In this document: positions 5,025 to 17,075 of the stretch, piece by piece
Layout: the number at the start of each line of letters is the position of its first letter
Position numbering within the stretch: the first letter of the stretch is position 1
NCBI GenBank assembly: GCA_019308995.1
Contig: JAFDHD010000030.1
Span: forward strand, 1-42,886
DNA from: Deltaproteobacteria bacterium
Lineage (GTDB): Bacteria > Desulfobacterota > Desulfarculia > Adiutricales > JAFDHD01
Direction: 5' to 3'
DNA: 42,886 nucleotides
Position numbers and translations under genes: made by a program
Notes under the pieces: model-generated
Databases searched by the model: none
Seen by the model: only the letters and a program-made list of their open reading frames with translations
What the model was told of the DNA's origin: nothing

Positions 5025-5051
5025 GTGTGCACGCCGCAGGCGCAAGAAGTC
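5025..5051. repeat. Left inverted repeat of the RAYT element
   Basis: The central block CGCCGCAGGCGCAAGAAGTC (20 bp) is repeated exactly, inverted, at 5599-5618. Only two bases near the outer end differ over the full 27 bp. Confidence 0.8.
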
Positions 5052-5562
5052 ATTCCGGGGGCTGGATTTTTACTCCACACGATTGTCCCGACAAATAAAA
5101 TGGCGCGGAGCTAAATTGCCAGTCTTCCGGCCTGTCCACCAATCCCCCTCTTACCGGATTTTCGTGCATATACTTTAGTTTCTCTACCAGCTTCTTTTCG
5201 GTGTAAAGATTGAAATCGTAATATCGGCGCTGCCAGGCCGGGTCATTTACATCGAAATCTGAGGTATAAGAAGTATAATGCATTTTCATATTGTTTTTGA
5301 TTTGTCGGGAAGACATTTGTTTCCATTGTTTCATAAAATGACTGATGCGATTTATTATGGGGAAGCAGACGATGGCATGTACATGATCAGGCATCACCAC
5401 GAAACCAAAGCATTCTCCTTCCTGTAGGGTTAACTGAGAACTAAGCACTCCAATGACAATTTTCTTGTGAATATCGTCATTCAGAAGCTTTCTTCGTCGA
5501 TAACAAGAAAATGTTAGGTAATGCGCCTGACCTTCCTCTTCGTAAATTTTTCTGTCAGCCAT
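5050..5562 (-). CDS. rayT: REP-associated tyrosine transposase (Transposase_17 / Y1_Tnp)
   Basis: This is a protein of about 170 residues of the IS200-like HUH superfamily, which cuts single-stranded hairpin DNA through a tyrosine. It shows the early RRKLL segment, the metal-binding HUH signature as VVMPDHVHAIV, and the closing region with MHENPVRGGLVDRPEDWQFSS, which is diagnostic for RAYTs. A tyrosine in the YDFNLYTEKK helix is the likely nucleophile. I start it at the ATG of MADRKIYEEE (5562). The frame stays open to a GTG at 5625, but those extra codons only translate the right-hand inverted repeat. The gene looks intact. RAYTs are usually single-copy domesticated genes that maintain REP sequences rather than freely moving elements. 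Confidence 0.88.
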   Translation of the reverse strand: MADRKIYEEEGQAHYLTFSCYRRRKLLNDDIHKKIVIGVLSSQLTLQEGECFGFVVMPDHVHAIVCFPIINRISHFMKQWKQMSSRQIKNNMKMHYTSYTSDFDVNDPAWQRRYYDFNLYTEKKLVEKLKYMHENPVRGGLVDRPEDWQFSSAPFYLSGQSCGVKIQPPE

Positions 5563-5598
5563 ACACAAATCATAGCAGATAATACACGCAAAAGGCAG

Positions 5599-5625
5599 GA
5601 CTTCTTGCGCCTGCGGCGCCCACAC
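5599..5625. repeat. Right inverted repeat of the RAYT element
   Basis: This is the inverted copy of 5025-5051 (25 of 27 positions). It lies between the transposase start codon and the outer hairpin at 5624-5642. Confidence 0.8.
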
Positions 5626-5924
5626 GATCCTTTAAGGATCGTATGGGCCACCCTCGAAGATCACAATATCTAGCAGTGATGGTATCGGGTAGAAAATCTG
5701 CGATCGCTGCAATATCTCCCAATCCCATACAATTTATTGATACGAGGTAGATATCTTAGCCCATTATTAATCCCATGAAAAAAATTAGCGGGTTAAAACT
5801 GATATTCTTTTTTCCCTCACTCCTCACATACTCGTGGATGGAGCCCCGGATTCGAAAGGCGCAATGTTCCGAACGACACAGTCGAGATACTTTATGCGTT
5901 TTTTCAGGGACGATTATGTATGGT

Positions 5925-15097: not shown

Positions 15098-16234
15098 TTA
15101 AGCCTTGGGTTTGGGCAGAATGGCTTCGGCAAACTCGTCGTCAAAAGTGCGGCCCTCGGCTAAAAGCTGTCTGTATGTTATGTAGTCTATGTTCCTGCTT
15201 CCGGTAAGTTCCTGGGTGTTGAAGGCGTTGAAGCCGACATAGGCCTCCGAGTTCATATTAGCCGCCAGATAGTAAATCTGGCTGCTCTTCAAATGATCCC
15301 AGAAGAACTTTTTCTTAGTCCGAACGCTTTCGATGGTGTTCATTAGGCAGATGAAAGTGGTATTAGTCAGGGTCCAGACCATCTGGCTGACATATTCGTC
15401 CAAAAGGGTCCAATCGGTTTTAAGACCCTTCAGCTCGCTCAGGGCCGCTCGGAACTCTTCTCCTTTTTTAAACTCTCCATAAACGATCTCACCATCCTTT
15501 ACATACTGGTCGGTGATAACTCGCGGATCTCTGACCCATTCACCTTTTTCGTTTTTCTTAACTGGAATGGCCTTGGTGATCATGCCCAGCCTTTCCGCCT
15601 TGTATGCGCTCCACATCTCGTTTGAAACGGCCTGCCACATGGCCTGTTCCATACTGAGGTTCCAAGGCAGAAAATCCGTTGACCCGCCGGTTGGGCTCGA
15701 ACCATGCCGCGTGCCCACCTGTCCGAAGCCGGCCGTATCCGCGGCCACGGTAAAATCGCAGGCCTGGCCGACCTCCTGGCCCCCGCCGATCCTCATACCG
15801 TTGCTGCGGCAGATGACCGGCTTCCGGGCCTTGAGAATGCCGTCAACCATCCCTGAAAACAGGTCCATGTACTGTGAGTATTCAAGGGGCCGTTTGGAAT
15901 AATATTCGGCATACTCCTTGGTATTGCCGCCGGTGCAAAAGGCACGGTCCCCGACCGCGGTGAAAATGATGGCCACCACGTCCCTTTCCATGGAAGCTTT
16001 GTGCATCCCGGCGATGACGCCCTTGCACATCTCAGTGGTGTAAGAATTGTATTGGGCGGCGTTGTTCAAAGTGATCCAGGCAGTATTCAGACCGTCCACG
16101 GTCTCGCCGGTGTCCATGTTTATCAAGGGTTTTTTTTCGTAACTAATGCAAGGCGGCTCGGTTCCGAAATGTTCCTCCCCAAACAGTTGATGATCTTTTA
16201 TTTCATTATCCCTCACAAGCCAATCTAAACTCAT
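15098..16234 (-). CDS. oah: 6-oxocyclohex-1-ene-1-carbonyl-CoA hydrolase
   Basis: This is a 378-residue ring-opening hydrolase of the Oah/BamA group in the crotonase superfamily. It adds two waters to the 6-oxo intermediate and cleaves the ring to 3-hydroxypimelyl-CoA. The group is recognisable from its unusual length (normal crotonases have about 260 residues) and from segments such as CTGGNTKEYAEYYS, MRIGGGQEVGQACDF and GTRHGSSPTGGSTDFLPW. BamA-type genes are widely used as a marker for anaerobic aromatic degradation. It is the first gene of the operon. Its start codon is 18 bases downstream, in transcript order, of a perfect 19-bp palindrome, and the ribosome binding site is weak. Confidence 0.95.
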   Translation of the reverse strand: MSLDWLVRDNEIKDHQLFGEEHFGTEPPCISYEKKPLINMDTGETVDGLNTAWITLNNAAQYNSYTTEMCKGVIAGMHKASMERDVVAIIFTAVGDRAFCTGGNTKEYAEYYSKRPLEYSQYMDLFSGMVDGILKARKPVICRSNGMRIGGGQEVGQACDFTVAADTAGFGQVGTRHGSSPTGGSTDFLPWNLSMEQAMWQAVSNEMWSAYKAERLGMITKAIPVKKNEKGEWVRDPRVITDQYVKDGEIVYGEFKKGEEFRAALSELKGLKTDWTLLDEYVSQMVWTLTNTTFICLMNTIESVRTKKKFFWDHLKSSQIYYLAANMNSEAYVGFNAFNTQELTGSRNIDYITYRQLLAEGRTFDDEFAEAILPKPKA

Positions 16235-16251
16235 TTTAATTTAGCCCAAAT

Positions 16252-16497
16252 CCACTGACATTGTCAGTGGTGGGGTGTGGGGGCGGAGGTCCCACTCTTA
16301 TAGCGAGCCAACATTGTTGGCGAGATAAAAATATAGATCAGAGATCTTTCCATTTCAGGCAAGACGGAGGACATTGTCCGAAGTCTTACCGCACTCTAAA
16401 GCCACCGACAAGGTCGGTGGTAGTTTACTCTCCTCCTTTTGGATGATTTACTAAACTAAAGCTCCAATTACTCCAACCCGCCGGCACGGTACCGGCG
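16252..16497. promoter_or_regulatory. Array of five related palindromes in the oah leader
   Basis: Five inverted repeats with an odd central base lie between padR and oah. Centres are at 16261 (CCACTGACATTGTCAGTGG, perfect 19-mer), 16314 (GCCAACATTGTTGGC), 16374 (GGACATTGTCC, with AAGAC/GTCTT as an outer stem), 16411 (CCACCGACAAGGTCGGTGG, one mismatch) and 16488 (CGCCGGCACGGTACCGGCG, one mismatch). The first three share the core ACATTGT. Spacings are 53, 60, 37 and 77 bases. They could be operators for the adjacent PadR protein or another regulator, RNA hairpins controlling translation of oah, or a cluster of mobile palindromic repeats. The sequence alone does not decide. Confidence 0.6.
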
Positions 16498-16520
16498 TTA
16501 TAAAATGCGTGGCTGAGATT

Positions 16521-17075
16521 TTATTCAAAGAAGGCTTCAGCCTTCCATTCCTTGCAATCAGACACCTTTACGATCATTTGTTTTAACTGAGACAACTCGC
16601 TTTTAAAACGATCCAGGTCCTTCTCGATGACCATTAACCGGTTCAGCGGCGTCTTGCCTTTGAAGTCCTCCAGCCTTCTCTCCATGCTCTTGATAGCCCT
16701 CTCCAGAAGAATCTGTTTTTGTTTCAAACATTCGAGGGCCTTATCTCTGGACAAGGCAAAAATGAAAAAATAACCAAGGTTGGACAGGTCGTGGGTCAGG
16801 TTTTTATCCATGAGGGACCTCTCCACCAGAGAGGCCAGCCGCTCACTTCCCCGGGAAGTCATCCTGTAAACCTTCCGCTCAGGCATCAGGCCTTCTCTTT
16901 CGGTGTGAGATTTAATCATTTTATTTTGGTGGAGTTTGGCCAAGGTTTTGTAAACCATGGGTGGGCTGATCTTAGCCCAGGAATCCATACGATGAATCTT
17001 CACTTCCTGGATAAGCTGATAACCATACATAGGCCGGTCCATAAGAAATCCCATGACCATGAGTTCATATTTCAT
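16521..17075 (-). CDS. PadR family transcriptional regulator
   Basis: This is a 184-residue protein. The N-terminal winged helix starts MKYELMVMGFLMDRPMYGYQ, the usual PadR opening, followed by the wing segment RKVYRMTSRGSERL. The C-terminal half is a long, charged helical region (residues 110-175) of the kind used for dimerisation in PadR subfamily 1. PadR proteins commonly repress genes for phenolic or aromatic compounds, and this gene sits directly upstream of the benzoyl-CoA operon on the same strand. It is therefore a good candidate for its regulator. A perfect palindrome lies 37 bases before its own start (17112-17127). Confidence 0.9.
   Translation of the reverse strand: MKYELMVMGFLMDRPMYGYQLIQEVKIHRMDSWAKISPPMVYKTLAKLHQNKMIKSHTEREGLMPERKVYRMTSRGSERLASLVERSLMDKNLTHDLSNLGYFFIFALSRDKALECLKQKQILLERAIKSMERRLEDFKGKTPLNRLMVIEKDLDRFKSELSQLKQMIVKVSDCKEWKAEAFFE

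Follow-up and report, generated by a model that had tools for sequence, protein, structure and literature searches.

A palindrome array before oah is most probably a transposase-free IS200/IS605-family element located between the Shine-Dalgarno sequence and the start codon

In IS200/IS605-family elements the TnpA transposase recognises the ends in the form of hairpins of single-stranded DNA. The cleavage sites are chosen through base pairing with a guide tetranucleotide located 5' of each hairpin (PMC5934647; PMC8266576). The left guide/cleavage pair of IS608 is AAAG/TTAC, insertion takes place 3' of the target tetranucleotide, and both IS608 and ISDra2 show a strong preference for the +1 base (PMC5934647). 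In the IS200 of Salmonella a stem covers the ribosome-binding site of tnpA (PMC12594629). Elements lacking the transposase have been described as palindrome-associated transposable elements (PATEs) in Haloquadratum (PMC3119063) and Halanaerobium (PMC7290912), where only the palindromic ends of IS605-type elements are found. The locus analyzed here belongs to a stretch of 42,886 nucleotides (the window) from a Deltaproteobacteria bacterium. It is the 286-bp leader (16235-16520) between a padR gene (16521-17075, minus strand, PF03551) and oah (15098-16234, minus strand), an intact gene encoding a 378-aa 6-oxocyclohex-1-ene-1-carbonyl-CoA hydrolase-like protein of the enoyl-CoA hydratase family (PF00378). 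We conclude, with a probability of about 0.95, that four of the five palindromes of this leader belong to one non-autonomous element of 185 bp, a PATE/MITE-like derivative within the IS200/IS605 family, which landed between the Shine-Dalgarno sequence and the ATG of oah.

All five inverted repeats listed in an earlier note on this DNA are present at the positions it gave and in a leader of the length it gave, the fifth being imperfect. Palindrome 1 (16252-16270) reads CCACTGAC-ATT-GTCAGTGG, palindrome 2 (16307-16321) GCCAAC-ATT-GTTGGC, palindrome 4 (16402-16420) CCACCGAC-AAG-GTCGGTGG and palindrome 5 (16479-16497) CGCCGGCAC-G-GTACCGGCG, while palindrome 3 (16361-16387), AAGAC-gga-GGAC-ATT-GTCC-gaa-GTCTT, has the second outer stem AAGAC/GTCTT that the note had described. 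A small sixth palindrome that the note lacked, AGATC-AGA-GATCT, is located at 16335-16347. The array is beyond chance: there are 3 perfect triloop palindromes with a stem of 6 or more bp against 0.076 expected (0 of 2000 dinucleotide-preserving shuffles), and 4 with a stem of 5 or more bp against 0.27 expected from shuffles of the same kind. Compared with shuffles, the leader folds strongly as RNA of the oah strand (z = -6.3), and the leader region does so as DNA of the plus strand, which is the element strand (z = -5.0). This folding and the position directly before oah are what would be expected of a dedicated regulatory leader, in which mRNA hairpins would serve attenuation, an RNA-binding protein or another form of riboregulation of the benzoyl-CoA operon. 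No Rfam family was found in the oah leader, the sole match (E = 4.4, chance level) lying outside it. The odd-centred dyads also resemble operators, and with padR as the neighbouring gene the array could be read as a row of symmetrical sites bound by PadR or a different protein.

The genomic distribution of the palindromes bears on both of these readings. When the leader was used as a query against its own genome, eight other contigs showed ten matches to it, with 87-100% identity; with the window included, this makes 11 matches at nine genomic places. Contigs of the source genome (G000) are given below as C-numbers, C30 being the window copy. The eight other loci are unrelated places, and tnpA adjoins the element sequence in two of them, C84 and C51. 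In C84 (210-811) a partial left end, with the inner left palindrome only, is followed by a tnpA frame and then by both right palindromes. This frame reads MEGYRKSSHATY*CEYHFLWVPKYRYQ... and terminates in DNSE*; it encodes an IS200/IS605 transposase (Y1_Tnp; NF033573) and is interrupted by a single TGA at 347-349 of the locus (L014), where C51 has AGA. The C51 copy (665-1019) contains two left palindromes, the start and the end of tnpA with the middle deleted, and two right palindromes. A contig of a Desulfobacterales MAG (L031) carries a full-length copy whose TnpA (147 aa) is intact and shares 76% identity with that of C84, and a contig of a viral collection (L046, IMGVR_UViG_3300005264_001257) has another intact tnpA followed by the same right end. 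The TnpA proteins of L031, L046 and C84 match NF033573, the IS200/IS605 transposase family, with E values of 1e-46 to 2e-42; the family also corresponds to PF01797, and solved relatives include the ISHp608 transposase. The L031 protein shows the Y1 HUH features, with HVH at residues 61-63 and, in its C-terminal part, Y125. The same ends flank tnpA in C84, C51 and L031, and because these related copies carry tnpA between them, the window copy can be understood as an internally deleted, non-autonomous derivative.

These results largely refute a dedicated oah leader, which we consider very improbable: the same hairpins occur at unrelated loci and around tnpA, and no such palindromes are present in the 400-bp leaders of the five close orthologues scanned. 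Still less probable is an array of operators, since palindromes 1-4 travel as one element without padR, which leaves that reading for 16479-16497 only. The earlier note had considered RNA hairpins of the oah leader on one side and a family of palindromic repeats on the other, and had named the same palindromes at unrelated loci, or a loss of the symmetry in close relatives, as results that would speak against the hairpins. The first of these was found, and it is the repeat family, with tnpA beside two of its eight other members, that has been borne out. The locus therefore carries a transposon remnant and not a purpose-built regulatory leader.

The element was searched for in 40 relatives and in a further 62 genomes from the class, and its own genome was the only one to have it. 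An intact tnpA of this subgroup is absent from the source assembly, and the family may thus no longer be mobile in this strain. Several minor observations were made on the copies. The left end hairpin of the viral-collection relative (L045/L046) was not recognised. The C51 copy (L010, G000:C51, 1-1330) sits between an integrase-like frame and an apparent tRNA gene and for this reason is possibly part of an integrated island. The same genome has another, intact IS200/IS605 TnpA (L018, G000:C213, 160-680), whose end hairpins, CCACGGGTTTACCCGTGG and CCCCGGGCTTGCCCGGGG, are different.

We set the edges of the window element by the guide/cleavage logic and by comparing left and right ends across copies, which placed it at 16244-16428 on the plus strand, the right edge being uncertain by one base (16428 or 16429). 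The 185 bp contain no TnpA frame and share their ends with L031 and C84. On the left, the putative cleavage and target site TTTA (16240-16243) would be host DNA retained on excision; it is TTTA in C30, C54, C51 and C137 and TCTA in C46 and L031. The left guide AAAT (16248-16251) stands directly 5' of the left-end hairpin, and is conserved in C30, C54, C51, C137 and C46, with TAAT in L031. This hairpin (16252-16270, 8-bp stem, ATT loop), presumably a TnpA binding site, is conserved in C54, C51, C137 and L031 and near-identical in C46. The left ends of C30, C54, C51 and C137 read TTTA|GCCCAAAT-hairpin, that of C46 TCTA|ACTCAAAT and that of L031 TCTA|AGACTAAT. The left-end inner hairpin (16307-16321) has a 6-bp stem and an ATT loop and is found on the 5' side of tnpA in full-length copies, and the right-end inner hairpin with its outer stem AAGAC/GTCTT (16361-16387) overlaps the tnpA stop codon in them. 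The right guide (16398-16401) is AAAG in C30, C51, C84, C12 and L046 and AAAA in L031 and L032; directly 3' of it is the right-end hairpin (16402-16420, 8-bp stem, AAG loop), also a presumed TnpA binding site, and the putative right cleavage site TTAC (16425-16428) is the element end. All of these features are on the plus strand. The right ends of the window and C51 read AAAG-hairpin-TAGTTTAC|T, with slight alterations in C84, C12 and L046, and those of L031 and L032 read AAAA-hairpin-TAGTTTAT|T.

The base after the right end is T in 8 of 8 copies, in line with the +1 preference of IS608 and ISDra2. TTTA or TCTA directly precedes all six complete left ends, and the empty-site comparison gave no true empty site; the left cleavage site at TTTA is placed by analogy. 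The one same-genus genome (G001) had no oah match at the threshold used, and tested as an empty-site source for other copies it gave no clean site, in the case of the C46 copy because only one flank, the tRNA side, aligns. The central part of the window element (about 16325-16360) is shared with C54, and its last part with C12, but it has no counterpart in the full-length copies, so simple deletion from C84 or L031 does not account for the window element. A promoter-like sequence, CTGAAA-17-TATATT, lies inside the element on the minus strand (16358-16330) and points at oah; it was identified by consensus match only.

Changes at the right end follow the pairing rule. Guide and cleavage site there are AAAG/TTAC in five copies versus AAAA/TTAT in two foreign copies (L031 and L032), and the change of the last guide base from G to A together with the last cleavage base from C to T agrees with the compensation expected from base pairing, although as it is seen in two related sequences it may be a single evolutionary event. 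The left-end pairs are consistent with the rule, with too little variation among copies for a test. The stems also change on both sides. Palindrome 2 is GCCAAC/GTTGGC in the window, ACCAAC/GTTGGT in L031 and ATCAAC/GTTGAT in L046. The outer stem of palindrome 3 is GACATCAGC/GCTGATGTC in C51, AAGACAACAGC/GTTGTTGTCTT in C84, GACAGCAGC/GTTGCTGTC in L031, GCAAGAT/GTCTTGC in C12 and AAGAC/GTCTT in the window, and L046 and L032 retain most pairs with a few breaks; these pairs were counted by eye from the sequences because the MAFFT alignment of the right ends misplaces the outer stem. The suggestion in the earlier note that pairing is under selection therefore holds, as the arms covary between copies, for instance in palindromes 2 and 3, but the selection belongs to the transposon and not to oah. 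The small TnpA subgroup of L031, L046 and C84, in whose right ends guide and cleavage site covary naturally, offers an independent check of the base-pairing rule of IS608. In the full-length copies a stem also covers the tnpA ribosome-binding site, GTAACCTC/GAGGTTGC at 108-138 of L031 and GTAACCCC/GGGGTTAC in C84 (L014, 272-310), with paired changes between the two.

The guides also bear on a further reading, an array of REP/BIME palindromes spread by a REP-associated transposase. The palindromes are short, and the window itself contains a gene for a REP-associated tyrosine transposase at 5050-5625 (NF047646, E 2.7e-32). However, the palindromes occupy fixed places around a classical IS200 tnpA in C84, C51 and L031, the feet of the hairpins carry AAAT/AAAG guides instead of a GTAG tag, and nine genomic places are below the high number usual for REPs; we give this reading very little credence. 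At the 5' end of the REP-associated gene there is a perfect 8-bp triloop palindrome, ACGATCCTTTAAGGATCGT, at 5624-5642, so that the window contains, apart from the element, another transposase system of the single-strand type.

The single IS200/IS605-type element is supported by a second line of evidence, strong and independent of the repeat comparison, from the start of oah. Orthologues with 81% identity begin at the same methionine. On the oah strand, the sequence between the left end of the element and the gene is TAAATTAAA-ATG, and just beyond the right end it is CCAAAAGGAGGAGA. The displaced Shine-Dalgarno sequence AAGGAGG (16432-16438, minus strand) is now about 200 nt from the start codon. 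When the element is removed, AAAAGGAGGAGA is rejoined with TAAATTAAA-ATG to give a consensus Shine-Dalgarno sequence before oah; the in silico deletion of 16244-16428 yields AAAAGGAGGAGATAAATTAAAATG, in which the Shine-Dalgarno sequence stands 12 nt before the ATG, counted from GGAGG. We compared 30 oah orthologues, up to 81% identical, obtained from a phylum search and from G005. All 30 have a Shine-Dalgarno sequence near the aligned ATG, and its predicted pairing energy with the 16S tail ranges from -7.1 to -13.4 kcal/mol, averaging -11.0; at the oah start of the window the predicted value is -4.0 kcal/mol as it is versus -11.6 when joined. The closest orthologue (L051) reads AAAGGAGGAGGTAAAAGTATG, with the start region AAAGGAGGAGGTAAAAGT-ATG. 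Among the 31 orthologues compared, the window oah alone is without a Shine-Dalgarno sequence. Since joining restores the site and 30 orthologues have kept it, this is strong evidence for an insertion at these edges, which appears to have parted the ribosome-binding site of oah from its start codon.

We infer from these comparisons that the window element transposed in the past. The left and right ends of a 0.6-kb insertion sequence of the IS200 type would have been fused with deletion of tnpA, and a TnpA acting in trans would have attached to the end hairpins of the single-stranded DNA, while the guide tetranucleotides located 5' of them determined the cleavage sites by base pairing. Insertion would have occurred 3' of TTTA, the next base being T, without target duplication, at a point 9 bp before the oah ATG and with the element strand opposite to oah. 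The element is like the IS200 group (tnpA only, no tnpB) in the TnpA family (NF033573/PF01797), the single gene, the subterminal hairpins, the guide and cleavage tetranucleotides and, as none was seen, perhaps also the lack of a target duplication, and the full-length copies resemble the Salmonella IS200 in the stem over the tnpA ribosome-binding site (PMC12594629). It differs from the group in the loss of tnpA from the window copy, the perfect triloop stems, the second pair of inner hairpins and the TTTA/TCTA targets. With the IS608 of Helicobacter pylori it shares the guide AAAG with cleavage at TTAC and the +1 base preference (PMC5934647), but the pair belongs to the left end of IS608 and to the right end here (the left pair here being AAAT/TTTA), and IS608 has tnpB. 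With PATEs it shares the absence of transposase, the palindromic IS605-type ends and the deleted core (PMC3119063, PMC7290912), and it is unlike them in its host lineage, in having kept the inner hairpins and in a centre that the full-length copies do not explain. It joins this described class of transposase-free elements with palindromic ends, an ordinary one, and the only notable point is its exact landing place. What had looked like a candidate novel riboregulator is replaced by a transposon remnant dividing the ribosome-binding site of a catabolic gene, one that is in single copy at the threshold used.

The frame of oah is intact, and the genome has no other match at 1e-100. Translation of the gene therefore presumably continues, though probably at a level reduced by the insertion. 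A fold that would bring the old Shine-Dalgarno sequence beside the ATG was rejected: its closing stem forms in a short fold, but the probability is at most 0.03 once some of the oah coding sequence is included, and a longer leader takes it to about zero. We think it unlikely that the element has been co-opted as a new regulatory leader for oah, with translation independent of a Shine-Dalgarno sequence and a transcript that may start inside the element, where the promoter-like sequence lies; if so, the amount of an enzyme central to anaerobic benzoyl-CoA degradation would now be set by a transposon end.

Palindrome 5 (16479-16497) is separate from this element. The earlier note had grouped all five palindromes as related, which is correct for palindromes 1-4 as one repeated unit and not for the fifth. 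We rejected it as a further copy of the repeat because its sequence is unrelated and unique in the genome, other matches having 2-3 mismatches and being no commoner than those of a reversed control pattern. It is GC-rich, is separated from the element by 50 bp and falls within what was presumably the old promoter region of oah, and our guess is that it may be a candidate operator of that promoter.
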